Source: Cyanobium sp. AMD-g
GTDB lineage: Bacteria > Cyanobacteriota > Cyanobacteriia > PCC-6307 > Cyanobiaceae
Direction: 5' to 3'
Assembly (NCBI RefSeq): GCF_024346395.1
Contig: NZ_JAGQCW010000001.1
Location: 186,001-250,000, forward strand
Length of the DNA stretch: 64,000 nucleotides
The notes under the pieces: model-generated
What the model was told of the DNA's origin: nothing
Database searches by the model: none
The model's input: the letters and a program-made list of their open reading frames with translations, nothing else
Shown: piece after piece, positions 5,887-30,991 of the stretch
Position numbering within the stretch: the first letter of the stretch is position 1
How the letters are laid out: each line of letters begins with the position of its first letter
Translations under genes and position numbers: made by a program

Positions 5887-7077
5887 CTAGGCAGCCAGCC
5901 ACACGGCACCGCGGCAGCCCCGTTCCTCCGCCAGCTGGTCTGCCGCCGCCTGGTCGGCGCAGGGCCGCGTGCAGAGTTCGGCGGCTTCCCCCTCCCGGTG
6001 CAGATCTGTCATGCGGATGAGGGCCTGCCCAAGGCCGGCGGCGGTGGCGCAGGCCACCAGCCAGGGTCCCGGGGTCTGGGCCTCGGCCGCCGCACGGGCA
6101 CCCTCCGATTCGAGCAGGTCGCGGATGGCTTCCACATCGAAGCCGAAGCCGGTGCCGGCCGCCTCTGAGCTGCCAGAGCAGAAGCGACCCACCAGGGCGT
6201 CGTAGCGACCGCCGCTGGCGATGGCCACCGGAGCATCGGCCCCATGGCAGACGAGCTTGAACACCAGGCCGTCGTACAGATCGAAGTGGGGCTGGAAGGT
6301 GGGATCCAGCTGCACCCGCACACCGAGGGCGGCGGCCGGGGCCGTGATGCTGGCCAGGGTGGCGGCGAGAGACTCCAGCAACGGCACGGGGCCGAGCCAT
6401 TGCTCCAGCTGATAGAGCACCCGCACCGGCTCGCCCCGCAACCCGATCAAGGCCATCAGCCGCTGGCGCTGGCTGTCCGGCAGGGAGAGGGCGGCGAGGG
6501 CCAGGGGGTCGAAATCGGTGAGGGCATGGCGCGCCACGGAGCGCTGCTCCTCCGGCACCTGGCTCAACAGGGCGCTGAGCAGTCCGTGGTGCCCCACCAG
6601 CAGGGTGGGCTGGTGCCGGGGCGGCAGCCCCAGGCTGGCCACGGCCGCCAGCAGCAGGTGCAGCAGTTCAGCGTCGGCGGCGGGGGAGGGTTCCCCAAGC
6701 AGCTCCACGCCACTCTGCAGCTGCTCGCTGATGCGCTGGCCGCCGCCATCACCGGTGAAGCTGCGGAAGGTGGTGCCACTGGCCCAGAGCCGCAGGGGCC
6801 GGGGCCGGCCCAGCATCCGGGTGCTGGCGGCGCGGGCGATCGGAGCGGTGAGTTCCGGCCGCAGCCCGAGGGGCTCATCGGCCACCAGCCGCACCAACTC
6901 CCGTTCGGCGATGGCGCCACCGGCCTCCAGGGTGTCGAGCCGCTCGATGGTGGGGGGCGCCACCTCCTGGTAGCCCCAGAGGCGGTACACGTTGGCCAGC
7001 AGATCGCACAGGCGCCGGTTGCTGTCCACCTGACCCGGGTTCAGGTCCCGCGCGCCGGCGGCAGGTTGGAGGGCCAT
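5887..7077 (-). CDS. hisZ: ATP phosphoribosyltransferase regulatory subunit HisZ
   Basis: Paralogue of the histidyl-tRNA synthetase catalytic core that partners the short-form HisG in the first step of histidine biosynthesis. The synthetase-like motifs are visible: GYQEVAPPTIERLDTL, LGLRPELTAPIARAAS and FRSFTGDGGGQ. There is no anticodon-binding domain, as expected for HisZ. I chose the ATG at 7077 (MALQPAAGARDLNP) because the upstream in-frame extension is Pro-rich and shows no conservation with the family; this gives 396 residues. HisG is not in the window. Confidence 0.93.
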   Translation of the reverse strand: MALQPAAGARDLNPGQVDSNRRLCDLLANVYRLWGYQEVAPPTIERLDTLEAGGAIAERELVRLVADEPLGLRPELTAPIARAASTRMLGRPRPLRLWASGTTFRSFTGDGGGQRISEQLQSGVELLGEPSPAADAELLHLLLAAVASLGLPPRHQPTLLVGHHGLLSALLSQVPEEQRSVARHALTDFDPLALAALSLPDSQRQRLMALIGLRGEPVRVLYQLEQWLGPVPLLESLAATLASITAPAAALGVRVQLDPTFQPHFDLYDGLVFKLVCHGADAPVAIASGGRYDALVGRFCSGSSEAAGTGFGFDVEAIRDLLESEGARAAAEAQTPGPWLVACATAAGLGQALIRMTDLHREGEAAELCTRPCADQAAADQLAEERGCRGAVWLAA

Positions 7078-17524: not shown

Positions 17525-18156
17525 CGCGGCTGATCGATCCAGTCCCCGTCGCGCTGGCGGCGGCTTGATCGTGTCGGGTGGGGCCGGAAGGTCCCCCTGC
17601 GTCTGAACGCCGCCTCCCATCCCTGCCTGGATCTTCGGGACCGAGCGAGGCGTCTGCCCGTGACCGGAGGGATGGCGCAGGCCTGACGCCGGGCGGCCCT
17701 CCCTCCGGAGCTGGGAGCGTCTTGGGCCCATTCCCGCGGTTGTAGATGCCCATCATCAGTTTCCATCGATCGGCCCAGCGCAAGGCGTTTCGGCCCCCCA
17801 CCTCGGCTGGTGCCTGCTTCAGCCCATGGGGTCTGCCCACTTCAACCCCAACGCCACGGCCAGGGATGACCTGAAGGCGTTGTTGAGAAGTGAATGCAAC
17901 TGGGCGCATTAATCTCTAACGCTCCTGCTGCAGTCTTTGGAATGCAATATCGCTGTGGTCGCCAGTCCCTGGAGAACAATGTAACGTCGATCTGCTGCAG
18001 ATATGCAGATGCGCAATACATGTTAACCCAAAAGTATGAAACAACCTGAGAAGTCCTTGAGGAGATGGTTGTAAGAAAGAGGTCAGGAACGGCTGAGTCA
18101 TCCGCCTCGCCCTCTCCTGGGATTACAGGACTTCAGGTACCTTCATCCTTAGAAAC
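17525..18156 (+). promoter_or_regulatory. Long intergenic leader before the secretion locus
   Basis: These 632 bp contain no convincing gene. The first part is GC-rich and holds a large inverted repeat (17664-17708). From about 17890 the base composition turns markedly AT-richer, with CTGCTGCAG at 17925-17933 and 17992-18000, the inverted repeat CTGCA-GATA-TGCAG nearby, TTAACCC at about 18023 and a TATGAA at 18035-18040 that could be a -10 element. The start codon of the first repeat protein at 18157 lacks an obvious Shine-Dalgarno sequence. An open stretch ending at 17913 was examined and not recognised. Confidence 0.5.
17664..17708. repeat. Intergenic inverted repeat (9-bp perfect arms)
   Basis: CCGGAGGGA at 17664-17672 pairs with TCCCTCCGG at 17700-17708. 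Within the loop GGCG (17674-17677) pairs with CGCC (17687-17690), enclosing AGGCCT. There is no T-run after it, so it is not a standard terminator. It could be an RNA structure or a protein-binding element. Confidence 0.6.
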
Positions 18157-20868
18157 ATGACCGCCACCAACACCACCCGCACCGTCGGGATCGAGAAAAC
18201 GAAGATCGAGGTGGGCACCAGCACAACGCTGACGTCGAGTGCGACCTCCACCACTCCCGCCAGCGACACCGTGGTGTCCGGTGACGCTGATGCCACCGCG
18301 AACACCACCGCGCAGGCCGCCATCCTGAACAGCAAAATCAGTATCGGCACGGCGGGCACCCTCAGGGCCACCGAACTCGGAACCGTGGGGGCCACGGCCA
18401 CCACCACCACCGGTGATGCCACGGCCAGCGCCAGCAACGACGGACCGACCGGCGGCATCATCGCCACCAAGCATCCCATCCACATCGCCGTCGGCACGAA
18501 TGCGGTGGTGGACGCGAGCGCCACCAACGGCGCCACGGCAGCCGCCACCACCGTGGATGGATTCTCTTCCGCCACCGCCAACACCGGCAAGGTGTTCGGC
18601 CTCAAGAATGTGGGCCTCACGGCGGGTAACGGCACCAGCCTGGATGCCAAAGCGACCGCCTCGAACACGGCGACCGCCACATCGGTGGGCCTCTCCAGCG
18701 ACGATGACGGCTCCTCTGCCACTGCCGGCGACTACGGCGCCAAGGTGGTGGGCATCTATGCCAGCGGCGCCAAGGTCGTCGTCCCATCGGACACCGACAC
18801 CACTCCTGAAGCCGCGGCCAGCTCCAGCGAAGGTGGCTATGGCAACGGTGGCTATGGCGGCCCATCCGGACCGCTCAAGATCGCCTTCGGCAACAGCGCG
18901 GCCCTCTCCGCCTTCGGCGACGGCCAGTTCGATTCCAAAGCCACCAGCGTGACCGGTTCGGCGGATGCCGAGAGCCTGGCCAAGCTGGTGGCCGGCATCG
19001 CCGTGGGCCCGAACAAGGTCGTCACCGACGACGTGTCCGAGCCGGTGATCAAGCGTGAGGGCGGCATCGCCATCAGCTTCGGTGAGAACGGCGCCGTCGG
19101 TGCCCAGGGGACCCTGGGAGCGAACGCCATCGCCGAAACGGTCACTGGCCCCGCCAACGCCACCGTGGCGATCAAGACGATCGGCGGCATCGTCGATGTG
19201 AACAAGCTCCCCGGAGCTTCCCAGCCCGACGGCATCGGCGGCAGCACCCTCACGATCGGCAAGAACGGTGACGTCCAGGCGGCCGCGGTGGGCAACAGCA
19301 TCGCCAAGGCCACCTCGGTGACCGCGCCGGAGGCTGAAGACGTGACGGCTACCACCAACAACAGCAGCGTGGTGGGCATCGCCATCGACAAGCTGGCGAT
19401 CGGTGAGAACGCCACGCGGCTCTATGCCGGGGCCGGCAGCACCCAGGCCGCCACGGCCCAGAGCACCACCTCCGGTGGCGATCCGGCCGCCAGCGCAGCG
19501 GTCGGCGACTTCGTCGCCGGTTTCCACGACACCAAGGTGACGGTGGGCAAGGACGCCACCAGCCCTCTGGCCGAAGCCGTTCTCAACGCCACTGCCACGG
19601 CCGTCGGCGTCACCACCACGGCGGGGAGCAACGCCGCCGCCGGTAACGGCTCCAAGGTGGTGGGCTTCAACAAGGGCAGCCTCGACATCGGAGGGAGCAT
19701 CACCGGCACCGGCGTCTTCAATGCCAACGCCACGTCCAATCTGGCGGCCAACGCCTCCGCCGTCACCGGGGACTCCACGGCCCAGGCCGGCGGGGACGGC
19801 AGCAAGGTGATCGGCCTCAACAAGGCCCCGGTTTCCATCGGTCAGGCCGGCAGCGTGGCCGCGGTCGCCAACGGCAGCGTGGCGGCCACGGCAGCCTCCG
19901 TGACCGGCGACGCCACGGCCGAGGCCGCCCAGAAGGCCCGGGGCATCAAGGACAGCGAGATCACGATCGGCACCAACGGGAACGTCGCCGGCAGCGCCGC
20001 CCTGACCGGCACGGCCTCGGCGGGCACCACCACCGGTGACGCCACGGCCGAGACCTCCCTGTCCGCGAAGGGCATCGACAACGATGTGCGGATCGCCATC
20101 GGCAGGGCCGGCAACGTGACCGGCACCGCCTCGGCCACCGATCAGGGAACCACCGCTGCGGCCGTCACCGGCGCTGCCTCGAGTGACTCCGACCTCAAGG
20201 CGATCGGCATCCATCTGGGCAGCGGCACGCCGATCACGATCGGAACCGTCGGCAACACCACCGGCACCGCCACCGCCAGCGCCCCCAACGTGCTGGCGAC
20301 CACGACCACCGGTGATGCCTCCTCCACGGTGTACCAGACCGCCATCGGCATCAAGGGCAGCGGATACGAGAACGGTCTGGCCACCCAGAGCATGGCGGGC
20401 GGCAGCTCGATCGTGGCAGGCGTGGGCGGCAACGCCCAGGGGAATGGCACCGGCAGCGCCACCGTGGCCGCCAACACCATCACCGGTGACGCCGATGCCA
20501 GCACCTATGCCCTGATCGCCGGCATCAAGAAGGTCGACCTCTCCGTCGACAACCTGACGGCGAATGGAAGGGGGACCTACTCCACCACGGCGACCGCCGT
20601 GACGGGGGATGCCACGGCCAACTCCGATGTGAAGGTGGCGGGCCTGCTGGGGCACTGGAACAGTGCCAGCCTCAGCGGCAATCTCAATGCCTCTGCAGTG
20701 TTGACCAACACCGTGTTTGCCTCCACGGTCACCGGTGCGGCCACCGCCAACGCCAGCAGCGATGCCGTGGGCATCTACGGATACCACGTCAACATCCTCC
20801 AGAGCGGCGACATCACGGCCTCGGCTGTGAGCAACACCAGCGCCATCGCCAACACCGTGACGGTTTAA
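18157..20868 (+). CDS. Large low-complexity repeat protein, candidate type I secretion substrate
   Basis: A 903-residue protein dominated by Thr, Ala, Gly, Ser, Asn, Val and Asp; I saw no cysteine. It is built of roughly a dozen or more degenerate units of about 50-65 residues. The recurring pattern is a GI turn, then ITIGTNGNVAGSA-like and TVTGDATAEA-like strands (for example SVTGDATAEAAQKARGI and GTTTGDATAETSLSAKGI). The pattern suggests a beta-solenoid or stacked beta-strands. It has no signal peptide and no obvious RTX nonapeptides. The next genes encode an RTX-like protein and a type I exporter, so I infer it is exported or surface-associated. An intrinsic hairpin follows, which may set its expression apart from the exporter. 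No specific family was recognised. Confidence 0.75.
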   Translation: MTATNTTRTVGIEKTKIEVGTSTTLTSSATSTTPASDTVVSGDADATANTTAQAAILNSKISIGTAGTLRATELGTVGATATTTTGDATASASNDGPTGGIIATKHPIHIAVGTNAVVDASATNGATAAATTVDGFSSATANTGKVFGLKNVGLTAGNGTSLDAKATASNTATATSVGLSSDDDGSSATAGDYGAKVVGIYASGAKVVVPSDTDTTPEAAASSSEGGYGNGGYGGPSGPLKIAFGNSAALSAFGDGQFDSKATSVTGSADAESLAKLVAGIAVGPNKVVTDDVSEPVIKREGGIAISFGENGAVGAQGTLGANAIAETVTGPANATVAIKTIGGIVDVNKLPGASQPDGIGGSTLTIGKNGDVQAAAVGNSIAKATSVTAPEAEDVTATTNNSSVVGIAIDKLAIGENATRLYAGAGSTQAATAQSTTSGGDPAASAAVGDFVAGFHDTKVTVGKDATSPLAEAVLNATATAVGVTTTAGSNAAAGNGSKVVGFNKGSLDIGGSITGTGVFNANATSNLAANASAVTGDSTAQAGGDGSKVIGLNKAPVSIGQAGSVAAVANGSVAATAASVTGDATAEAAQKARGIKDSEITIGTNGNVAGSAALTGTASAGTTTGDATAETSLSAKGIDNDVRIAIGRAGNVTGTASATDQGTTAAAVTGAASSDSDLKAIGIHLGSGTPITIGTVGNTTGTATASAPNVLATTTTGDASSTVYQTAIGIKGSGYENGLATQSMAGGSSIVAGVGGNAQGNGTGSATVAANTITGDADASTYALIAGIKKVDLSVDNLTANGRGTYSTTATAVTGDATANSDVKVAGLLGHWNSASLSGNLNASAVLTNTVFASTVTGAATANASSDAVGIYGYHVNILQSGDITASAVSNTSAIANTVTV

Positions 20869-20892
20869 CGCCTCTCTAGAGGGTCTCCCAGT

Positions 20893-20925
20893 GGGGGGCG
20901 GATCTTCCCATCCGCCCCCCCTTTC
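20893..20925 (+). terminator. Intercistronic hairpin after the repeat-protein gene
   Basis: An 11-bp perfect inverted repeat, GGGGGGCGGAT (20893-20903) with ATCCGCCCCCC (20910-20920), has a 6-nt loop and is followed by CTTTCCT. It starts about 24 bp after the stop codon. It could act as a partial terminator or an mRNA-stabilising stem that lets the first substrate be made in excess of the downstream genes. Confidence 0.65.
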
Positions 20926-20961
20926 CTGTCTCCGTTCCGGTCCCTGCGCCTGTCGCTCACC

Positions 20962-23079
20962 ATGGAGTTCCAACCCATCACAACCGCCCTGTCGCGGGCC
21001 CTGGCCCTGCGACTCGATCCGGGCACCACCTATCTCGGGAGTGGTCTCAACCTCGAGATCTCCCCCAGCGCCCAGGCCAGCAACCAGGTGGTCCTGCCGG
21101 CCGCCCAGTCGATCGGGTCGATCGCCACCGCCCTGGGCCTCGGCCTCGGCGCCAGCCGGTTCCTCGCCGGTCCGGAGAACGGGGACTTCTTCAACAGCCC
21201 CGGCCTCTCGGTGGTCACCGGGGGAGGCTCAATCGGCGGCAACGCCGCCGCCACGGCCCAGACCAGAGGCCGCAATGACAACAGCGCCGATGCCACAGCG
21301 GTCAACATTGGCCTGGCCAATCTCGACGTCGTCACCCGCGGTGGCGGAGTCCTGAGCATCGGCACGGCGGCGGACCCCTTCACGGCGAGCGCCAAGGCGG
21401 CGAGCCGTTCACTGCTGGCTCCCCAGGCCAATCCGTTCCTCACGGCCCAGCTGTCGGCTCTCGCCACGGTGCGGGGACTGGAGGGTCTTCCCCCGGTCGC
21501 TCCCGCCCCCTCGGCGCCCAGCCTGGCGATCGCGGGCCTGCCCACCTTCTACGGCCAGCCCAACGCCGCGGTGCTGGCGGCCGCAACTCTGGATCTCGAT
21601 CCGGGGCCCACCACCACGACCGCCCGCGCCGTGGCCGATGCGAAGGGCATCGAGGGCTACCGGGTCATGGCCCTGTCCCCAGGGACGGGATCTGCCGCCC
21701 TGGTGAGCGGCATGGCCACCGCCAGCCTCGGCCTGGCCGGTGCTCCACCCACCACTGCCCAGCCGGCCGACCTGACGGCGACGGCCATCGGCATCGATCA
21801 GGCGGCCCTGCGGGGCCCCGGCAATGGGGCTGTCCTGTTCAAGGGAGCGGGCCTGGCCTTGCTCAACGCCCCCGCCGCCCTGCCACCAGGTTCCCTGAAC
21901 CTGCAGAGCCTGCAGGGGATCGGCATCGCCGTCAGCGACATCCAGAGCAACGGTGGGGATGCCTGGGTGGTGGGCGAGGGCGGCTTTGCGGCACCGAAGA
22001 GTGGTGGGCTGGTGCCCAGCATGGACGCCGCGGGCATCGATCGCTCCAGGATCTACACCGGCTCCGGCAACGACGTGGTGATCGGCCGCATCTTCACCGA
22101 GCAGAACGCCGGGGTGGATGCCAACGGTGACGGGGTGCTCTCGCCCAACGTCTTCCTTGATGCCTCCGCGCTGATCGGGGGGCCGGGCGGCTTCGATGGC
22201 ATCCGCAACAGCACGATCAACACCGGCCTGGGGGACGATCTCGTCGGGATCAGCAACAAGGGAGAACTCGCACTCCCGGCTCCCGGTTCATCCGCCAGCA
22301 ACAGCCAGATCGACACCTCCATCGGAAACGACCAGATCAAGCTGTACAACGCCCGCACCTCCAGCCTCGATGGCGGCTTCGGCAATGACGTCGTGATGGT
22401 GACGAACCTGGCTCTCGACAACAGCCTGAAGGGCGGTTTCGGCAACGACCGTGTGGAGGTGGCCGCCGGTGACGGCAACCGCCTGGATGGCGGCTTCGGC
22501 CAGGACCTCACGATCGGCGGGACCGGTAAGAACACCTTCCTGCAGTCCAATGCCGGTGCGGCGCTGGATGCCGCCAGCCGCGACACGGCGCCGGGCACAA
22601 CCTCAACCTTCGCCGAACGGCTCACCGATCCCAACTTCTGGGAGGGCCTCGGGGCGGAGACGAAACAGTATCTCTGGAATAAGGGAAAGCTGGCTCCCGA
22701 CGAGCCAGTCATCGCGGACACATTCAAAAACTTCGATGCCGCCCGCGGCGACGTCCTCGAACTCAGCAGCTCGCTGGGCTCGCTCACCCAGAATCTCTGG
22801 GACAGCCAGGGGGCCCTGTTCGGCGTGCAGGACGGCCAGCTGAAGGTGCTCGAAGGTCCAGCGAACAGCCAGCTGGGTCTGGTGGTGGGAACCCTCAACG
22901 ACATCCACTCGCTCGGGATCGGCTCGCCCTCGCTCGCCTACGCCACCGACACCCGCCAGCTGATGTTCGATGCCGATGGCGACTGGAAGGACGGCGGCAG
23001 CCGCAGCCTCGGCACGGTGAACATGACCGATCCCGCCTCCCTCACCAAGGCCAACATCCACTTCGGCAGCGGCGCCTGA
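20962..23079 (+). CDS. Secreted RTX-like protein with C-terminal type I export region
   Basis: A 705-residue protein without signal peptide. The N-terminal half (about 1-350) has degenerate SADATAVNIGLAN/TATAIGIDQAAL-type repeats reminiscent of the upstream protein. Residues about 360-540 carry acidic Gly/Asn/Asp repeats resembling RTX calcium-binding units: GSGNDVVIGRI, GLGDDLVGIS, GGFGNDVVMV, GGFGNDRVEV and GGFGQDLTIGG. The C-terminus (LMFDADGDWKDGGSRSLGTV) resembles the end of many RTX/type I substrates, where the export signal resides. It lies directly upstream of the exporter genes and is the most likely cargo. It may be a calcium-binding surface or extracellular protein; no enzymatic motif was seen. 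Confidence 0.8.
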   Translation: MEFQPITTALSRALALRLDPGTTYLGSGLNLEISPSAQASNQVVLPAAQSIGSIATALGLGLGASRFLAGPENGDFFNSPGLSVVTGGGSIGGNAAATAQTRGRNDNSADATAVNIGLANLDVVTRGGGVLSIGTAADPFTASAKAASRSLLAPQANPFLTAQLSALATVRGLEGLPPVAPAPSAPSLAIAGLPTFYGQPNAAVLAAATLDLDPGPTTTTARAVADAKGIEGYRVMALSPGTGSAALVSGMATASLGLAGAPPTTAQPADLTATAIGIDQAALRGPGNGAVLFKGAGLALLNAPAALPPGSLNLQSLQGIGIAVSDIQSNGGDAWVVGEGGFAAPKSGGLVPSMDAAGIDRSRIYTGSGNDVVIGRIFTEQNAGVDANGDGVLSPNVFLDASALIGGPGGFDGIRNSTINTGLGDDLVGISNKGELALPAPGSSASNSQIDTSIGNDQIKLYNARTSSLDGGFGNDVVMVTNLALDNSLKGGFGNDRVEVAAGDGNRLDGGFGQDLTIGGTGKNTFLQSNAGAALDAASRDTAPGTTSTFAERLTDPNFWEGLGAETKQYLWNKGKLAPDEPVIADTFKNFDAARGDVLELSSSLGSLTQNLWDSQGALFGVQDGQLKVLEGPANSQLGLVVGTLNDIHSLGIGSPSLAYATDTRQLMFDADGDWKDGGSRSLGTVNMTDPASLTKANIHFGSGA

Positions 23080-23129: not shown

Positions 23130-23933
23130 ATGCTTCCCGTTGCCCAGCTACACCGCGAACTCCGCAGCGCCGTGGACGCCATGGCCCGCCGGCCCCTGCA
23201 CGAGCTGCTCAAACAGCAGGGCATCCTGCAGGCCCTGGCCAGGGACCTGGCGCTCGAGGCGCTCCGGCGGGAGGCCCGCTTCTCCCCGGAGGAAAGCCCA
23301 GAGGTGCTGGCGCAGGTCTGCGCCGGATGGCCCGGGGCCCCCACCGTCAGCCTCGAGGGGGACTGGATCGCCGCCCTTCCCGAGAACCTGCGTGACACGG
23401 TGAAGCAGCGCTGGGATCATCTGCGGCTCCAGAAGGCCCTGGAAGACCGTTACGGCGAACGGGTGGAGGCCCATTTCCTGGAGCGGCGGGAGGATCTCGA
23501 GCAGGTGGTGTTCCGCCTGATGCGGCTGCAGCAGCAGGGACTCGCCGAGGAGCTCTATCTGCGCCTGATCGACGACGACGCCAGCTTCGGGGATCTGGCC
23601 AGCCGCCATTCCCTCGGGGAGGAGAGTCTCACCCGGGGGATCGTCGGCCCGATCGAGATCTCCCAGCTGCACCCCACCCTGCGGAGCGTCCTCCGCTCGC
23701 TCACGGCAGGGGAGATCCATCCCCCGTTTCTGCTCGATCAGTCGATCCTGCTGGTGCGGCTGGAGCACCGGCGGCCTGCGAGTCTGAACGAGGCCCTGCG
23801 CCACCGCCTGCTCGAGGAGCTGCTGCAGCCCGATCTGCAGGCCGCCATCGAGGCCGGCCTGGCCGACTACCGGCGAAGCCTCGCTCCGGCGGACACCCCG
23901 GTGTCCCCTGCGCTGGCTCTGGCGGGAGGCTGA
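23130..23933 (+). CDS. Parvulin/SurA-like peptidyl-prolyl isomerase linked to the exporter
   Basis: A 267-residue mostly helical protein with a parvulin-like region at about residues 115-215: EQVVFRLMRLQQQGLAEELY, DDDASFGDLASRHSLGEESL, GIVGPIEISQLHPTLRSVL and LLVRLEHRRPASLNE. I see no signal peptide or membrane helix, so it should be cytoplasmic. It ends 3 bp before the ABC exporter start, the signature of a functional unit. Linked parvulin-like genes occur beside type I or bacteriocin-type exporters in other cyanobacteria. A role in holding or preparing cargo before export is inference. Confidence 0.8.
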   Translation: MLPVAQLHRELRSAVDAMARRPLHELLKQQGILQALARDLALEALRREARFSPEESPEVLAQVCAGWPGAPTVSLEGDWIAALPENLRDTVKQRWDHLRLQKALEDRYGERVEAHFLERREDLEQVVFRLMRLQQQGLAEELYLRLIDDDASFGDLASRHSLGEESLTRGIVGPIEISQLHPTLRSVLRSLTAGEIHPPFLLDQSILLVRLEHRRPASLNEALRHRLLEELLQPDLQAAIEAGLADYRRSLAPADTPVSPALALAGG

Positions 23934-23936
23934 TCC

Positions 23937-26900
23937 ATGGCCACCGCCACCCGGATCGACGACCTGCTGCGCTGTTTCCCCTTCCTGGCCGACCAGCCGG
24001 AGGATGTGCTGCAACGGCTCTCCGACCAGGCCGAGCTGCAGCGTTTCCAGCAGGGCCAGCCCATCTGCCGCGTCGACCAGCCCCCGGCCCGGATCTACTT
24101 CCTCCTGGAGGGCACGGCCCGCGCCGTGGTGTTCTCCCGCCGCCTGCCCAGGGGCGTGGCCACGCTGCAGCGGCTCCAGCCCGGCACCGTGATCGGCTGG
24201 ACCCTGGTCAGCTGCGGCCGCTGCTGGGAGACCCTGATCGCCTCCACCGACCTGGTGGTGGTGGCCTTGCCCCATGAGGCCCTGCAGCGGGAGATGGAAC
24301 GGCAGCCTGCCCTGGGCGACCGGGTGCGGCGCGGTGTCAACGCGGCCGAACTGTTCGCCGTTCTGGATGCCCATCTCCAGGACTATCCACGCCCTCTCTC
24401 CCAGGAGGTGCTGGAGGCGGCCACCCAGCTGGCCGATGGCAGCGTCGCCCTCACCTGGACGCCCGCGGATCCGCCCCACTTCGAGCGGACCGACGAACGC
24501 CTGTGGCTGGTGGCGGGTGGTCCGTTGCCTCTCGGCATGGCCCTGGGCCGCCAGGAGCCCGTCGAGGCGCAGGAGGCCGTCCGGCTGCTCGGGATCGACC
24601 GTCAGCGGCTGGCGGCGATCCTGGAACCGCAGGTGGCGGAGGCCTCCGAGGATTCCGGCAACGGCTGGCATGCCAGGCTCCTGGCCCGCTGGGGGCAGGA
24701 GCGCCAGGCGCTCGAACCCGCCGCGATCACGGCCGCCGCTCCCATCGACGTGACAGCGCCGGTCGCGCCGCCGGATGCGGACCTGCAGGGACCCGAGGCC
24801 TACCCATGGGTGCGCGGTGTCGGCCCGCTGGAGTCGCCGATCGCGGCCTTCCTGATGCTCAGCCAGCACCTCGATCTCCCCTTCCGGCGCGACCTGCTGC
24901 GCCGGGTGTTCGGCGATCAGGTGCAGCGGCACGGCGAGGCGTCCCTGCCGCTGGCCGGCGCGGTGGCCGAATCCATGGGCCTGCAGACCCAGATGCTGGA
25001 CATCCAGGTCGGGGCCCTGCCCCGGTTGACGCCACCGCTGATGATCCGGTGGGGCAACGGCCTGGCGGTCATCTACCGCTGCAGCGCCCGGTCGCTGGTG
25101 CTGGGCATCCCGGCCGCCGGCAACCAGGAACTCACGCTCTCCGACTTCCGAGACCAGTGGGGGGAAGCCGGCGATGTGCTGACTCTGCGGGTGAACGACC
25201 TGACCCCGCGACGCCGCTTCGGCTTCCGCTGGTTCCTGCCGGCCCTACGGCAGCACCGCACCGTGCTGCTGGAAGTGCTGCTGGCCAGCTTCTTCGTGCA
25301 ACTGTTCGGCCTGGTGAACCCGCTGCTGATCCAGCAGGTGATCGACAAGGTGATCATCAACAACAGCCCCGGTGCCCTCGGCGTGCTCGGGGTGCTGCTG
25401 GTGGTCTTCGCCCTGTTTGAGGGGCTGCTGCTGTGCCTGCGCACCTTCCTGTTCGTGGACACCACGAACCGCATCGATCTGAGCCTGGGAACCCAGATCA
25501 TCGATCATCTGCTGCGTCTGCCCCTCAGCTATTTCGACCGACGGCCGGTGGGGGAAGTGAGCAGCCGTATCGGTGAACTGGAAAAGGTGCGTGGCTTCCT
25601 GACCGGTACGGCCCTCACCACGATCCTCGACGCCATCTTCTCGGTTCTCTACATCGGGGTGATGCTGATCTACAGCTGGCAGCTGACGCTTCTCACCCTC
25701 GCCGTGGTGCCGTTCCTGGTGCTGCTGGTGCTGGTGGTCTCTCCCATCGTGCAGCTCCAGTTGCAGAACCGGGCCGTGGCCAACGCTCGCACCCAGAGCC
25801 ACCTGGTGGAAGTCCTCAGCAGCATGATGACGGTGAAGGCCCAGAACATCGAACTGCGCAGCCGCTGGAAGTGGCAGGACCTCTACACCGATTACATCGC
25901 CGAGGGCTTTGATAACACGCTGGTCGGCACCACGGCCAGCTCGATCAGCGGCTTCCTCAACAAACTCTCCGGTCTGATCGTCATCTGGGCCGGGGCCGGC
26001 ATGGTGCTGTCCGGTTCGCTGAGCCTGGGGGAACTGATCGCCTTCCGCATCATCGCAGGCTATGTCACCGGCCCTTTGCTGCGCATGACGTCGATCTGGC
26101 AGTCCGTCCAGGAGACAGCCCTGTCCCTGGAGCGTCTGAGCGACGTGATCGACCATCCCCAGGAAGCTCCCGAGGACAACGCGAAGCGACTGATCATGCC
26201 TCCAATCCAGGGAGAGATCTGCTTCCGAAACATCTCCTTTCGCTACAAGTCTTCGTCCCCTCTGTTGCTGAAGTGCCTCAACCTGACGATTCCCCGGGGC
26301 ACGTTCGTGGCGATCGTGGGAACCAGCGGATCGGGCAAGAGCACCCTCACCAAACTGCTGGCGCGGCTGTATAGCCCGGAGGAAGGGGTGGTGCTGGTCG
26401 ACGGCATCGACATAGCCAAGGTGGAGCTCCATTCCCTGCGCCGCCAACTCGGCATCGTTCCCCAGGACACGGTGCTGTTCGATGGTTCGGTGCAGGAGAA
26501 CATCACCCTCACCAATCCCGACGCCAGCACCGAGGAGGTGATCGAGGCCGCCAGAATCGCCGCTGCCCACGACTTCATCATGGAGCTGCCCGCCGGCTAC
26601 TCCACGGAGGTGGGGGAACGGGGCAGCAGCCTCTCGGGAGGCCAGCGGCAGCGGATCGCCATCGCCCGCACGATCCTTCAGAAGCCGCGGCTGCTGATCA
26701 TGGACGAGGCCACCTCCGCCCTCGATTACCAGACGGAGCGGGTGGTGAGCGAGAACCTGATGCACGCCCTGCAGGGCTGCACCGTGCTGTTCATCACCCA
26801 TCGCCTCTCCTCGATCGTCAAGGCGGACATGATCGTCTGCATGGGGCAGGGGGCCGTCCTGGAAGTGGGCACCCATGACGAGCTGATGCAGGCCCGGGGT

Positions 26901-26972
26901 CCCTACTACGCCCTGTTCCGTCAACAGGGCCGTTCCTCCCAGGACAGCTCCCTTGGAGGGATCGAACCATGA
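23937..26972 (+). CDS. Type I secretion ABC exporter with degenerate cNMP-like and C39-like domains
   Basis: Inner-membrane exporter of 1011 residues. Residues 1-130 look like a cyclic-nucleotide-binding fold, but the phosphate-binding cassette is replaced by IGWTLVSCGRCWETLIAS. Residues about 290-415 resemble a C39 peptidase domain in which the catalytic Cys position reads LESPIAAFLML and the usual His strand reads NGLAVIYR, so it should be inactive, as in HlyB. About six membrane helices span 430-720. The ATPase domain has Walker A GTSGSGKST (about 795), signature LSGGQRQRIAIARTI (about 899) and Walker B LLIMDEATSALD (about 920). Its last four bases overlap the adaptor gene start. Confidence 0.93.
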   Translation: MATATRIDDLLRCFPFLADQPEDVLQRLSDQAELQRFQQGQPICRVDQPPARIYFLLEGTARAVVFSRRLPRGVATLQRLQPGTVIGWTLVSCGRCWETLIASTDLVVVALPHEALQREMERQPALGDRVRRGVNAAELFAVLDAHLQDYPRPLSQEVLEAATQLADGSVALTWTPADPPHFERTDERLWLVAGGPLPLGMALGRQEPVEAQEAVRLLGIDRQRLAAILEPQVAEASEDSGNGWHARLLARWGQERQALEPAAITAAAPIDVTAPVAPPDADLQGPEAYPWVRGVGPLESPIAAFLMLSQHLDLPFRRDLLRRVFGDQVQRHGEASLPLAGAVAESMGLQTQMLDIQVGALPRLTPPLMIRWGNGLAVIYRCSARSLVLGIPAAGNQELTLSDFRDQWGEAGDVLTLRVNDLTPRRRFGFRWFLPALRQHRTVLLEVLLASFFVQLFGLVNPLLIQQVIDKVIINNSPGALGVLGVLLVVFALFEGLLLCLRTFLFVDTTNRIDLSLGTQIIDHLLRLPLSYFDRRPVGEVSSRIGELEKVRGFLTGTALTTILDAIFSVLYIGVMLIYSWQLTLLTLAVVPFLVLLVLVVSPIVQLQLQNRAVANARTQSHLVEVLSSMMTVKAQNIELRSRWKWQDLYTDYIAEGFDNTLVGTTASSISGFLNKLSGLIVIWAGAGMVLSGSLSLGELIAFRIIAGYVTGPLLRMTSIWQSVQETALSLERLSDVIDHPQEAPEDNAKRLIMPPIQGEICFRNISFRYKSSSPLLLKCLNLTIPRGTFVAIVGTSGSGKSTLTKLLARLYSPEEGVVLVDGIDIAKVELHSLRRQLGIVPQDTVLFDGSVQENITLTNPDASTEEVIEAARIAAAHDFIMELPAGYSTEVGERGSSLSGGQRQRIAIARTILQKPRLLIMDEATSALDYQTERVVSENLMHALQGCTVLFITHRLSSIVKADMIVCMGQGAVLEVGTHDELMQARGPYYALFRQQGRSSQDSSLGGIEP

Positions 26973-28369
26973 CGTCCTCCAGCAACGGCAACGGCAACGG
27001 CACGGGCAATGGCCATGGGTCCGCAGCGGTGCCGGCGCCTGTCGCGTCCAATCCCGGACGCACCGCCACCCTGGCGCCCCCCCAGGAGGCTCCTTTGCCA
27101 CAGGTGCGCCTCAGCCGCCGCCGCACCCATCTGCCCCGTTCCACCCGCGGCTGGAGCCGGGCCATCGTCTGGAGCCTGATCGGCCTGACCGGTTTCGGCG
27201 TCATCTACGGCGCCGTGGCCAGGATCGATTCCTCGATCAGTGCCACCGGCAAGCTGCGCCCCATCGGCGGCAGCGTCGAGGTCCTGCCACCCTTCACGGC
27301 ACCGATCCGGCAGGTCCTCGTTCGCGATGGCCAGACGGTCAGGGCTGGCCAGCTGCTGGTGACCTTCGACAGCCAGCAGGCGCAGCGCGAGCGGAGCGAT
27401 CTGCTCCTGCAGGCCGATCTCTGGCGCCGGCAGGTGAACCAGGCGGCGCTGCAGCTGGGGCTTCCGTCATTGCCCGGTGGGAGCGAGGAGGAACGCCAGG
27501 TGCTGGCCCTCGAGCGCCGGGACATCCAGTTGCGCCATCGGGTGGCCCTGCAGCGGCGACGGCGCGCCGAGGCCGCGGAGCGGGAGCAGGTGGATGTGCT
27601 GGCGGCGCTGCGGGCCCGCTACGCCCTCAACGCCAACATCCGTGAGCGCATGGCCCAGCTGGCCAGAGAGGGGGCGATCTCCCACCTCGAACTGGAGCGC
27701 CAGGACGAACGCCAGCTGGATCTGCTGAGCACCATCCGCCGCACCGAGCAGCAACGGCTCGGAGCCGGCAGCGGCGTCATCGAAAGCCTGACGACCCAGG
27801 AGCAGGTGAGCACCGAGAACAACCGACGGCTCTGGGATCGCTACGACGAGGCCCGTCATCGCCTGCTCGAGACCACCACCCGTCTCGGCCAGGTGGAGGA
27901 ACGGCTCCGTCTCGGCCGGATCGTCGCGGCGCGTCCCGGCAAGGTCTTCGACCTCCAGGCCCGGGCCGGGGACATCTCCACTCCGGGCCGTCCCCTGCTT
28001 AGGTTGGTGGGTCAGCAGGGGCTGGAGGCGGAACTGGCGATCTCCAACCACGACATCGCCTTCCTGAGACCGGGTCAGGAGGTCGACGTGCGGGTGAACT
28101 CCCTTCCCTTCACCGATTACGGCTCCCTCAAGGGAACTGTGGTCCGGGTGGGGGCGGATGCCCTTCCCCCCGACCCACGCACCGGTCAGGAATCCTTCCC
28201 TGTGCTCGTGCGCCTCGATCGCAAGCAGCTGGGCAAGAACGGTCGCACCTATCCCCTGCAGGCCGGCATGGCGGTCACGGGCCTGGTGCAGCTGGGTTCG
28301 AGACCCGTTCTGGCCCTGCTCAACGACCGCTTCGGGGGCTTCCTCGACGCCACCCGCACGATGCGCTGA
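26969..28369 (+). CDS. HlyD-family membrane fusion protein of the type I system
   Basis: Periplasmic adaptor of 466 residues that would link the ABC exporter to a TolC-like outer-membrane channel. The first 60 residues are Gly/Asn/Ala- and Pro-rich, followed by a single membrane helix (AIVWSLIGLTGFGVIYGAVA, about 70-90). A biotinyl-lipoyl half-motif (VEVLPPFTAPIRQVLVRDGQ), a long alpha-helical hairpin (about 145-310) and a beta-barrel region (RPGQEVDVRVNSLPFTDYG) follow in the expected order. The ATGA overlap with the exporter indicates coupled translation. No TolC-like gene is present in the window. Confidence 0.92.
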   Translation: MTSSSNGNGNGTGNGHGSAAVPAPVASNPGRTATLAPPQEAPLPQVRLSRRRTHLPRSTRGWSRAIVWSLIGLTGFGVIYGAVARIDSSISATGKLRPIGGSVEVLPPFTAPIRQVLVRDGQTVRAGQLLVTFDSQQAQRERSDLLLQADLWRRQVNQAALQLGLPSLPGGSEEERQVLALERRDIQLRHRVALQRRRRAEAAEREQVDVLAALRARYALNANIRERMAQLAREGAISHLELERQDERQLDLLSTIRRTEQQRLGAGSGVIESLTTQEQVSTENNRRLWDRYDEARHRLLETTTRLGQVEERLRLGRIVAARPGKVFDLQARAGDISTPGRPLLRLVGQQGLEAELAISNHDIAFLRPGQEVDVRVNSLPFTDYGSLKGTVVRVGADALPPDPRTGQESFPVLVRLDRKQLGKNGRTYPLQAGMAVTGLVQLGSRPVLALLNDRFGGFLDATRTMR

Positions 28370-28399: not shown

Positions 28400-30991
28400 T
28401 CAGATGGCGGCTACGACGTTGACCGACTGCAGGCCAGGGAGCTCGGCAATGGCGGTGACGCTCCTGTCGGATCCCAGAAGCACCAGGCGGCTGCTGAGCT
28501 CCCCGGTGGCGATCGCCAGCTGGTCCATCCCTGACGACCGCGATCCCATGCCGCGGACCAGTTCATCGAGGGGGGCGATCGGCAGCAGCCGGGGCTGGCC
28601 GATCCCCTCCAGTCCCGCCGGTGTCAGGTCGACCATGCTCTCCGCCGCCGCATCACCCAGCAGGATGCCGCTCAGACGCCAGGACAGGCCATCGGTGAGC
28701 CCGATGCCATCGACGGTGCCGGGGCTGCGCTCCAGATCGGCCAGCACCGGCAGAGGACGGTCGTGGCCACCGGCCACCAGGCTCCGGATGGCCTCCATGC
28801 CGGCCAGCACGAACCGATCGCGTCCCTCGCCGCCATGGACGACCAACGCCGAGGCGACCGATTCCCCACTCCCGGCCAGGAGCGACAGATCCAGGTCGAA
28901 ACGGTCGTCCCCATCACCACCTTCGAGCGACAGCGTGCCGGCAGCGGCGATCATCCGGTCGTCTCCGGAGCCACCCCGCACCGCTTCGAAGCCGGTGATG
29001 CCACCCAGGATGCCGCTGGCTTCTCCGCTGGTGAGATCGACCACCACGGGCTCCTGCCAGGCGGCGTAGTCGAGAGCGTCCAGTCCATGGCCCGCCTCCA
29101 GCCGACCCTCGAGGCTTCCCAGGGCCCCCACCGCCACAGTCGCACCGGTGTCCCCGAGGGAAAGATTCTCCAGCCCGCTGAAACGCAGCGATCCGATCGT
29201 GCCTGTCCCGGGGCCATCCAGGCTGACGGCCAGGACGGGATCCTGCGGGGCCCTGACCACCATGCCGTCGTCATCTCCGGGGGCGTTCCGCAGGCTGTCG
29301 ACACCGGCACCGGCGTCGATGGATCCGGATAGATCCGCCAGGGGAAGGAGGATCAGGTCGTCTCCGCCCGCCGTGTCCAGCATCAGCTCCGCCCCGGGGC
29401 CTGCGTCCAGGGTGATTGTGAGCTCGTCCTCCCCATCGCCCAGTCGGATGGCATTGATGGACTCCGGAGCCAGGGCCACCGTGGACCCGTTCAGGGGTCC
29501 GGCGACCACCAGTCCGTTGGTGCCGCTGCCCAAGGCGATGCGGGATCCGATCACGGCACCTTCGACGCTCAGCAGGTCGTCTCCCTTCCCCAGGACGACG
29601 GTCGAATCCTGCAGGGCGATGGCCTGCGAGGGGGCCGGCAAGGATCCATCCAGCCAGGTCGCGATGCTGACCTGATCATCGCCGCCGCCGGTGTCGAGCA
29701 GGCTGTTCACCAGGCCGAGCGCCCGCGCCCGCAGTTGGAGGCTGCCGTCGCTCTCTGCCGCGTCGGCGGCCGGAAGGGTGAGGAGCAGACCGGGCCCTGT
29801 CCCGTCGAGGCTGCGGAAGCCACTGGCGATCGTCACGCGGTCGCTCCCGTCCCCCATGAGGATGGCGCTGTCCTGCATCGCCTGGGCGAGAAGGTCGATG
29901 CCCAGCTGCCGCTTCGTTGGGGCCTCAGGGGCCCTGAGATGGAACTGAGCCAGGCTGATGAGCTCAAGCGTGCCCCCGCCTCCAGCGTCCTGCAGGCGGC
30001 TGTCCAGCATGCCGATCAGCGACTGGAGCACCTGCCCCCGCGCCAGGCCTCCCGCCAGCAACCCCAGGTCGATGTCGTCACTGACCTGGAGACGGATGTC
30101 GTTGGCCTCGGGCCCCAGCAGAAGCGCGGACCGGTTCAGCCCGGTGTTGCGGCTCTCCAGGGTCAGCACGGCATCGTTGAGCACCGAGAGCGCCAGGAGG
30201 TGAAGCTCGCGGTCGGAGCCCACCTGCACCTGAGGCGTACTGATGTTGCGCAGATTGATCACCGCGTCTGTGATGGCGCCCAGGGTGTTGCTGTACTGGG
30301 TGCTGGCCACACCCTCCACGGACCGGCTGACGAGGCTTTCGTCGCTGCGCAGCACCACCCTGAGGCCCGGGATCTCCGGCTCCATCGCCTCCCTGGACGT
30401 CGACGCTTCCATCCGTTGTCCCGAGGCTTTCCGCGCTGCATCGCTCGGGTCGGAGGAATCGTCGCTCGGGTTGGAGGAGTCGGCCTCCAGGAGGGACCGT
30501 GCCGTTCCGTCGGCGCCGCTCCCCGGGAGGGTGAAGGACCAGGGAAAGCTGAACGAGCCCGCGGCTTGCGACTGCCGTCCCATCGGCGGCCCACCTGGCG
30601 TTGCCGCACTGTGCGCGAGCGGGGTCTGGTCCTCGCCCCGCGACGACAGCCATGGCTCGCCTCCTGGCGTCGTGCCAGGCCGATCAGCCGCGCCGAGTCC
30701 TCCGTCGGCGCTGCCCGCCACAGGTGGGGATGGCTCCAGCGGCGCCTGGGGTGTGCGGTTGCTGCCGGACCCTCCTGGGGATGGGGCAGTCTGCGGAACC
30801 TGCGCCTCGCCATCTCCAGTTCTGGCTTCCGCCTGCCGGGCTTCGACCGGACTGGCGGCAGCCCCATCCTGCATCAGATAGAGAAACGCCAGCCACAGGG
30901 CCGTTCCGGTCAGCACGGACTCCAGGGAGAGGCGACCGCGGTCGCCACGGAGACTCAACAGGTTGCGGAACTGGTGGGTGGCCTGGCCCAT
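28400..30991 (-). CDS. Membrane-anchored RTX-like repeat protein, convergent to the secretion operon
   Basis: An 863-residue protein. A basic N-terminus (FRNLLSLRGDRGR) precedes one hydrophobic helix (VLTGTALWLAFLYLM, about 27-41). Residues about 45-200 form a Pro/Gly/Ser-rich disordered linker. The rest contains irregular acidic Gly-Asp repeats, for example MGDGSDRVTIASG, GGGDDQVSIATW, GGSGDDRMIAAAG and EGGDGDDRFDLDL, in a beta-strand-rich context. It ends 30 bp from the HlyD gene, tail to tail. It may be a further substrate, or an anchored partner or receptor for the secreted proteins; the N-terminal helix argues for membrane retention. No catalytic motif was recognised. Confidence 0.75.
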   Translation of the reverse strand: MGQATHQFRNLLSLRGDRGRLSLESVLTGTALWLAFLYLMQDGAAASPVEARQAEARTGDGEAQVPQTAPSPGGSGSNRTPQAPLEPSPPVAGSADGGLGAADRPGTTPGGEPWLSSRGEDQTPLAHSAATPGGPPMGRQSQAAGSFSFPWSFTLPGSGADGTARSLLEADSSNPSDDSSDPSDAARKASGQRMEASTSREAMEPEIPGLRVVLRSDESLVSRSVEGVASTQYSNTLGAITDAVINLRNISTPQVQVGSDRELHLLALSVLNDAVLTLESRNTGLNRSALLLGPEANDIRLQVSDDIDLGLLAGGLARGQVLQSLIGMLDSRLQDAGGGGTLELISLAQFHLRAPEAPTKRQLGIDLLAQAMQDSAILMGDGSDRVTIASGFRSLDGTGPGLLLTLPAADAAESDGSLQLRARALGLVNSLLDTGGGDDQVSIATWLDGSLPAPSQAIALQDSTVVLGKGDDLLSVEGAVIGSRIALGSGTNGLVVAGPLNGSTVALAPESINAIRLGDGEDELTITLDAGPGAELMLDTAGGDDLILLPLADLSGSIDAGAGVDSLRNAPGDDDGMVVRAPQDPVLAVSLDGPGTGTIGSLRFSGLENLSLGDTGATVAVGALGSLEGRLEAGHGLDALDYAAWQEPVVVDLTSGEASGILGGITGFEAVRGGSGDDRMIAAAGTLSLEGGDGDDRFDLDLSLLAGSGESVASALVVHGGEGRDRFVLAGMEAIRSLVAGGHDRPLPVLADLERSPGTVDGIGLTDGLSWRLSGILLGDAAAESMVDLTPAGLEGIGQPRLLPIAPLDELVRGMGSRSSGMDQLAIATGELSSRLVLLGSDRSVTAIAELPGLQSVNVVAAI

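Follow-up and report, generated by a model that had tools for sequence, protein, structure and literature searches.

In the cyanobacterium Cyanobium sp. AMD-g, the gene lying directly upstream of an HlyB-type ABC exporter encodes a SurA-like member of the parvulin fold that has lost the residues of the parvulin active site. We propose that this parvulin relative, hereafter the pseudo-parvulin, is catalytically dead and serves as a cytoplasmic dedicated chaperone or delivery adaptor of HlyB-type type I secretion, a reading to which we assign a probability of about 0.55. The original prediction for the locus, a cytoplasmic peptidylprolyl isomerase (PPIase) acting as an export chaperone, is retained in part: a chaperone role is plausible, as the coupling to the exporter is widespread and many neighbours are large proteins of the T1SS type, and a role as PPIase is unlikely, the active site being absent. 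Published work is cited below by PMC number.

Results

Gene call and operon layout

The window is the 64,000-nucleotide stretch of genomic DNA that was analysed, and all coordinates refer to it unless a locus number is given. The pseudo-parvulin gene (23130..23933, plus strand) is an ATG open reading frame of 267 amino acids, SurA/PrsA-like in its predicted fold and scoring above the cut-off of Pfam model PF00639. Its stop codon occupies 23931-23933 and the ATG of the exporter lies at 23937, coordinates that confirm the predicted 267-residue parvulin-like gene ending 3 bp before an exporter gene. Position 23130 is the first ATG, GTG or TTG past the preceding in-frame stop, and no longer common start exists. 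An orthologue in another genome is 84% identical over residues 1-267, and the 117 base differences between the two genes fall 22/15/80 at codon positions 1/2/3; because of this full-length identity and the third-position bias of the differences, we regard the frame as a real gene. The copy in genome G013 (L082:10061-10860) is broken into two frames, through either assembly error or decay.

The exporter gene (23937..26972, plus strand; 1011 amino acids) encodes an HlyB-type protein comprising a cNMP-binding-like domain, a C39-like domain, an ABC transmembrane region and an ATPase. Its ribosome-binding-like site, GGGAGG (23924..23929, plus strand; read from the sequence), is located inside the 3' end of the pseudo-parvulin gene. 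The gene for an HlyD-type membrane fusion protein (26969..28369, plus strand; 466 amino acids) follows with a 4-bp overlap. Two probable cargo proteins flank these genes, each with three GGxGxD motifs and no Cys: one of 705 amino acids (20962..23079, plus strand), 50 bp upstream of the pseudo-parvulin gene, and one of 863 amino acids (28400..30991, minus strand), convergent with hlyD. Farther upstream, a repetitive, Thr/Ala-rich open reading frame of 903 amino acids without Cys (18157..20868, plus strand), which has no Pfam or NCBIfam match, may go with the cargo. A minus-strand frame (18133-20973) overlies the same repetitive stretch and is probably its shadow.

Predicted fold

The AlphaFold2 model of the pseudo-parvulin (mean pLDDT 90.4) starts with a set of helices and a long helix, on which a parvulin domain and a C-terminal helix follow, an architecture of helical chaperone module plus parvulin domain of the SurA/PrsA type. 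DSSP of the model assigns residues 1-123 (23130..23498, plus strand) to a SurA-N-like helical module, and the model together with structure comparison assigns residues ~124-217 (23499..23780, plus strand) to a parvulin-fold domain lacking the signature His and Cys. The long C-terminal helix of the model (residues 221-251; 23790..23882, plus strand) is one that we take to resemble the corresponding helix of SurA/PrsA chaperone modules. PrsA and SurA are the top structural matches of the model (Foldseek, VIA-align). The parvulin part superposes on Pin1, PrsA and SurA domains mostly at 1.4-2 Å, and at up to 4.0 Å in some Pin1 entries; alignments spanning most of the chain give an rmsd of 5.8-16 Å, so that the similarity does not extend to how the domains are arranged.

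Sequence comparisons place the protein in the same fold. The Pfam Rotamase model PF00639 matches with 26.7 bits against a cut-off of 21.7, the match starting only at profile position 20. A profile built from 27 family members and run against the Protein Data Bank reaches SurA (E 4.6e-15), PrsA and Pin1, and it aligns with the SurA N region, weakly when that region is taken alone (i-Evalue 0.37). Searches with the single protein yielded two matches among solved structures, at E 0.53 and to a ribosomal protein, and a scan of the genome contigs with it returned no relatives. Membership in NifM was rejected, since the sole NCBIfam match, TIGR02933, reaches 19.8 bits where its cut-off requires 168.2. 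The earlier label "parvulin-like" is thus right for the fold, in which PrsA and SurA come out on top and PF00639 exceeds its cut-off, and wrong for the catalytic residues, as the signature His and the Cys/Asp are absent. One orthologue (L084:1484-3238) carries a Pro/Ala/Glu-rich tail of ~300 amino acids after the pseudo-parvulin fold, for a total of 585 amino acids.

Pairing with the exporter

Pairing with the exporter is a feature of cyanobacteria and not of this locus alone: the tight coupling noted in the original prediction is a 3-bp gap here and is found widely in the phylum. In the Cyanobium genome itself, the three PF00639 genes immediately precede the three best exporter matches, one gene before each. 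Across 60 genomes, an exporter lies just downstream of 77/109 family rows and a family member just upstream of 77/93 exporters, leaving 16/93 exporters without one. These counts use 109 of 110 family rows (E limit 1e-3), the second fragment of the split G013 gene being excluded, and all 93 exporter rows (E limit 1e-150, 13 candidates scored per genome). Some unpaired family rows are contig ends or adjoin weaker exporters. Counted by genome (n=60), both genes are present in 52, the exporter only in 0, the family member only in 3 and neither in 5 (Fisher 1e-5, kinship ignored).

Inspection of 50 loci revealed exporter traces at four further loci (L036, L068, L071 and L090) and no exporter match at L072. 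The copies at L068 and L071 form a divergent subgroup with a more parvulin-like loop (SRGxMP), and the exporters paired with them match the window's exporter only from about its residue 280.

A second sample was drawn with a nine-member alignment: of its 576 matches the best 80 were taken, all at named cyanobacterial loci. Within these best 80 of 576, the exporter is directly downstream in 49, with HlyD as well in 40 of the 49 and a 4-bp overlap between pseudo-parvulin and exporter genes in 23 of them under automatic start choice. The other 31 of this best-80-of-576 sample are uncoupled: 5 records end within 1.5 kb downstream and 26 show no exporter over a downstream stretch of 2.9 kb or more. 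By record names, 23 of these 26 exporter-less loci come from heterocyst-forming genera (order Nostocales). Three Nostocales loci (L178, L191 and L195, at about 6001-6800) hold a solitary copy at a shared site near glutamine amidotransferase (hisH-like), rsmD-like and cytochrome c-like genes, all three matched to Pfam in L178 and the last two recognised by eye in L191 and L195. No exporter was found in the ~6 kb downstream of these three solitary copies, which may therefore act in trans. The copy at L170 has different neighbours. Family matches also occur on 18 plasmid records, all cyanobacterial.

The distances among pseudo-parvulins and among their exporters correlate (r 0.93 over 86 loci, permuted maximum 0.19, kinship ignored), the nearest neighbour being the same for both proteins at only 42/86 loci. 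In HetC the cNMP domain is needed for function and binds ppGpp (PMC10986499, excerpt), a point in favour of the idea that the pseudo-parvulin is a subunit or regulator of the exporter, one that would bind its cNMP-like or C39-like domain for assembly, stability or gating without contact with cargo. Tight gene coupling, the complete lack of genomes with an exporter and no family member (0/60), the correlated divergence of the two proteins and the family-specific conservation of R132, E141, G170 and P199, outside the catalytic set, would all suit such a subunit. Two points speak against it: solitary copies exist, of which four adjoin cargo-type proteins and lack an exporter in the stretch examined, and the architecture of the SurA-like module is one that binds substrates. 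We regard a purely structural or regulatory role as a somewhat unlikely explanation, although one to be kept in view.

Loss of the active-site residues

The two His residues kept by E. coli PpiC and by both SurA parvulin domains are absent from 27/27 aligned family members, the window protein included. The places of the Pin1 site positions within PpiC were assumed and read off the alignment. A wider alignment of relatives holds 140 of 141 rows, a 112-amino-acid fragment having been dropped; 139 of these rows are distinct, and none of them is the window protein. The signature His residues were scored by residue range (beta1 and 203-211), not by alignment column, in the 139 readable relatives that remain when L082, frame-broken before beta4, is removed from the 140. 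The Pin1 positions themselves are His59, His157, Cys113, Met130 and Phe134 (PMC6468809, excerpt).

None of the 139 readable relatives has a His at residues 126-132 or 203-211, the places of the dual-histidine motif (His59 and His157 of Pin1), nor does the window protein. A His anywhere in strand beta1 (125-133) occurs in 3/140 rows, each time at the first or last residue of the strand. The catalytic-cleft Cys/Asp, Cys113 in Pin1, is Gly in the window protein and Gly in 136, Thr in 3 and Ala in 1 of the 140 rows, and the place of the proline-pocket Phe is held by Leu in 98, Met in 23, Ile in 15, Val in 3 and Phe in 1 of the same rows. Other positions are nearly invariant (n=140): R132 (135), E141 (139), A157 (139), G170 (140), G173 (139), P174 (139), P199 (140) and R210 (128). 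It follows from this conservation that the parvulin domain is under selection, though not for the textbook site. H181, conserved in 126/140 rows, lies beside the proline-pocket position and could conceivably serve in an altered active site, and loss of the signature His does not prove inactivity.

Because the signature His is absent throughout and the Cys/Asp is replaced by Gly, the label "isomerase" is unlikely to be apt, and we rejected an active isomerase as the default reading. The predicted PPIase activity most probably does not survive this result: absence of the parvulin active site had been named as evidence that would tell against it, and that site is missing from the window protein and from 139/139 readable relatives. 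A parvulin domain that superposes mostly at 1.4-2 Å on those of Pin1, PrsA and SurA, a PF00639 score above cut-off and the conserved H181 are what an active cytoplasmic prolyl isomerase, changing or holding the folding state of cargo before export, has in its favour. Set against them are the loss of both signature His residues, the change of Cys/Asp to Gly in 136/140 rows and the replacement of the proline-pocket Phe by Leu, Met, Ile or Val in 139/140. Nor does retention of these residues guarantee activity in a parvulin domain, TbPar42, SurA Par1 and PpiD being the inactive examples in the excerpt of PMC6468809. Judged from the sequences, activity of the pseudo-parvulin as an isomerase is unlikely, and its use as an isomerase in export is distinctly improbable.

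All three PF00639 matches in the Cyanobium sp. AMD-g genome (G000) belong to the His-less family, and PF13616 and PF13145 have no matches there; these models therefore detect no canonical parvulin in the genome.

Exporter type and candidate cargo

The exporter is closest to HlyB. Among solved chains, HlyB is the top match of a profile of the exporter family (E 2.8e-222), and the leading peptidase-type bacteriocin transporter follows at 8.2e-141; the best NCBIfam match, TIGR01846, scores 699.6 bits, below its cut-off of 725.55. The C39 domain model PF03412 scores near its cut-off of 22 (20.5 bits in one scan, 25 in another), and it matches no other protein of the genome. The C39 Cys motif, in the form that we presumed for the scoring, occurs in 0/90 aligned exporters, which have no Cys at the aligned column either, and phmmer with the C39-like region returned no matches. 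An ABC exporter with a degenerate C39 domain and an HlyD are thus both present, as in the HlyB type. TolC-type outer membrane factors (PF02321) score above cut-off in four frames of the genome, none of them in this operon.

Several neighbours resemble type I substrates. The 705-residue protein has weak metalloprotease/RTX matches below the cut-offs, and neither it nor the 863-residue protein has a Pfam RTX match, though both carry GGxGxD motifs; a single Pfam RTX match, at 23.9 against 23 bits, was found in the orthologue at L087. Among the 11 orthologous operons of the window's lineage (L078-L088), an RTX-like frame is convergent with hlyD in all 11, and a frame without Cys, 600 or more codons long and reaching 3,383 codons stop to stop, is directly upstream in 10, the contig of L084 ending at that point. 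A relative of the 705-residue protein is upstream in 6/11 (L078-L082 and L087). RTX-like frames occur at 30/140 loci overall, a raw count made with no control region.

Gene order is ExeM/NucH nuclease, pseudo-parvulin, exporter and HlyD on plasmid pAQ7 of PCC 7002, and Calx-beta protein, pseudo-parvulin, exporter and HlyD in Nostoc TCL26-01. In PCC 7002, a laboratory strain of Picosynechococcus, the pseudo-parvulin gene is SYNPCC7002_RS15550 and the nuclease gene SYNPCC7002_RS16275. On two further plasmids, the neighbour is a recombinase in one and the record starts there in the other. Elsewhere, chosen neighbours matched by Pfam include subtilase-RTX, phytase/PhoD, PPC, calpain-like, GDPD and FG-GAP proteins; these are 10 proteins picked as secreted-looking and so give a range, not a rate. 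The ten comprise 8 of 47 upstream frames of at least 600 codons, the 251-residue neighbour at L176 and that of PCC 7002, and they include those of L042 and L043, where the copies stand at contig ends and are not solitary. Four solitary copies (L062, L091, L176 and L194) adjoin PPC, calpain-like or GDPD/phytase proteins. A same-strand upstream frame of at least 600 codons is present at only 39/94 coupled loci, and many of these frames are not cargo-like (median 0.71 Cys per 100 amino acids). The other two operons of the Cyanobium genome follow glycosyltransferase genes, not cargo. Two cargo-like neighbours, L043:37-5373 and L200:3005-5434, end in DUF4114 (PF13448), which may be a tail for type I export in cyanobacteria. 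Taken together, the large secreted-type proteins are likely to be cargo of these exporters.

Type I secretion of big proteins is favoured over bacteriocin maturation because of the absent C39 Cys motif, the first-ranked match to HlyB and the many large secreted-type neighbours. A partner in RiPP or bacteriocin maturation, as the cluster classes of 2011 imply, would agree with the gene order, which equals that of group I clusters (PMC3140520), and with the requirement for MirC, encoded beside a PCAT, in formation of the graspetide rosaritide (PMC13097080). The group I clusters themselves, however, held just 0.35 predicted precursors each in the available part of PMC3140520, and on the retention of the C39 Cys motif in 0/90 exporters, the ranking of HlyB as first solved relative, the lone PF03412 match in the genome being this exporter, and the large size of many neighbours, we rejected maturation as very improbable.

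Cellular location

The pseudo-parvulin is probably cytoplasmic, to judge from its sequence. No N-terminal signal peptide is apparent by hydropathy, the best 15-residue mean in residues 1-50 being 1.02 versus 1.79 for E. coli SurA, the signal-bearing control; the absence of a signal peptide claimed in the original prediction is thus borne out by hydropathy and by the lack of an earlier common start. The same coarse measure reaches at least 1.5 in 14/140 relatives, one of which (L140), at 1.81, exceeds SurA. That the protein acts in the periplasm through an unrecognised route, SurA/PrsA-like, on emerging cargo or on HlyD/TolC is scarcely credible: solved relatives with the chaperone module, such as PrsA, SurA and PEB4, work outside the cytoplasm and the N-terminus of those 14 relatives includes a rather hydrophobic stretch, but the window protein has no hydrophobic N-terminus and its gene no longer common start.

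Discussion

We infer for the pseudo-parvulin a cytoplasmic location, binding of cargo, its hand-over and the exporter domain that receives it. In the mechanism we envisage, the pseudo-parvulin would be made together with the exporter through translational coupling, and its helical module and pseudo-parvulin groove would bind large cargo poor in cysteine, either ahead of export or in the course of it. The bound cargo would be kept unfolded and presented to the N-terminal cNMP-like and C39-like domains of the exporter. The C39-like domain of HlyB acts as a tether for RTX cargo in the unfolded state (PMC11026475 and PMC8277102, excerpts). Counting against the chaperone reading are the 26 exporter-less loci among the best 80 of 576 named loci, the glycosyltransferase-flanked operons, the 16/93 unpaired exporters, the long upstream frames confined to 39/94 coupled loci, the nearest neighbour shared at only 42/86 loci and the conserved H181.

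If the chaperone reading is true, C39-like type I secretion acquires a cargo chaperone of its own, whereas for the HlyA model no chaperone is known in the available text of PMC11026475. A broader and more tentative idea, which we think doubtful as it stands, is that the widespread pseudo-parvulins would be the first cytoplasmic chaperones dedicated to C39-like (HlyB-type) secretion and would hand cargo to an exporter in which the cNMP-like domain controls export in response to a nucleotide signal; the ppGpp-binding cNMP domain of HetC is a precedent for such a signal. The labels "peptidylprolyl isomerase" and "bacteriocin" cluster, applied to these common cyanobacterial operons, both look misleading.

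Among known systems, chaperones of the SurA, PrsA, PpiD and Cj1289 type share the helical module and the parvulin domain. The pseudo-parvulin differs from them in lacking a signal peptide by hydropathy, in being paired with a type I exporter and in having lost the signature His. NifM is a parvulin-type partner protein in the cytoplasm. The parvulin domain of PpiD and one of those of SurA are inactive, and the proteins nevertheless act as chaperones (PMC2956729, excerpt).

HlyB/HlyD secretion resembles the present system in its ABC exporter with a C39-like domain, its membrane fusion protein and the candidate RTX-like proteins nearby; the additional N-terminal cNMP-like domain and the additional pseudo-parvulin gene set the present system apart. 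HasD, by comparison, is without an N-terminal domain (PMC8277102, excerpt). Secretion of HasA needs the cytoplasmic chaperone SecB (PMC11026475, excerpt), which is alike in being a cytoplasmic chaperone of a type I substrate and unlike in being general and unrelated. The prediction that a chaperone would be unusual for type I secretion therefore stands with respect to the HlyA system, and has to be qualified by the service of SecB to HasA and by a gene order that is common in cyanobacteria and was reported in 2011 (PMC11026475 and PMC3140520, excerpts). MirC, a PpiC-annotated, SurA-like protein encoded beside a peptidase exporter, is similar in annotation and setting; it belongs to an actinobacterial RiPP pathway, and in its authors' comparison its C-domain shares nothing with the Cj1289 PPIase domain (PMC13097080, excerpt).

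Close counterparts are the "bacteriocin" clusters of groups I, II and VI of Wang et al. 2011, 57 of them in group I, which likewise combine a "SurA" (rotamase) gene, a long C39-ABC exporter with N-terminal CAP_ED, and HlyD (PMC3140520). The HlyD and rotamase domains were assigned there to peptide secretion and modification, with no tested function in the available part of the paper, and no later functional study of this protein is among the open-licence papers listed by the literature searches. The gene order has thus been known since 2011 (PMC3140520, excerpt); to it we add the loss of the catalytic residues, the loss of the C39 Cys and, in place of the peptide reading, large proteins as the likely cargo.
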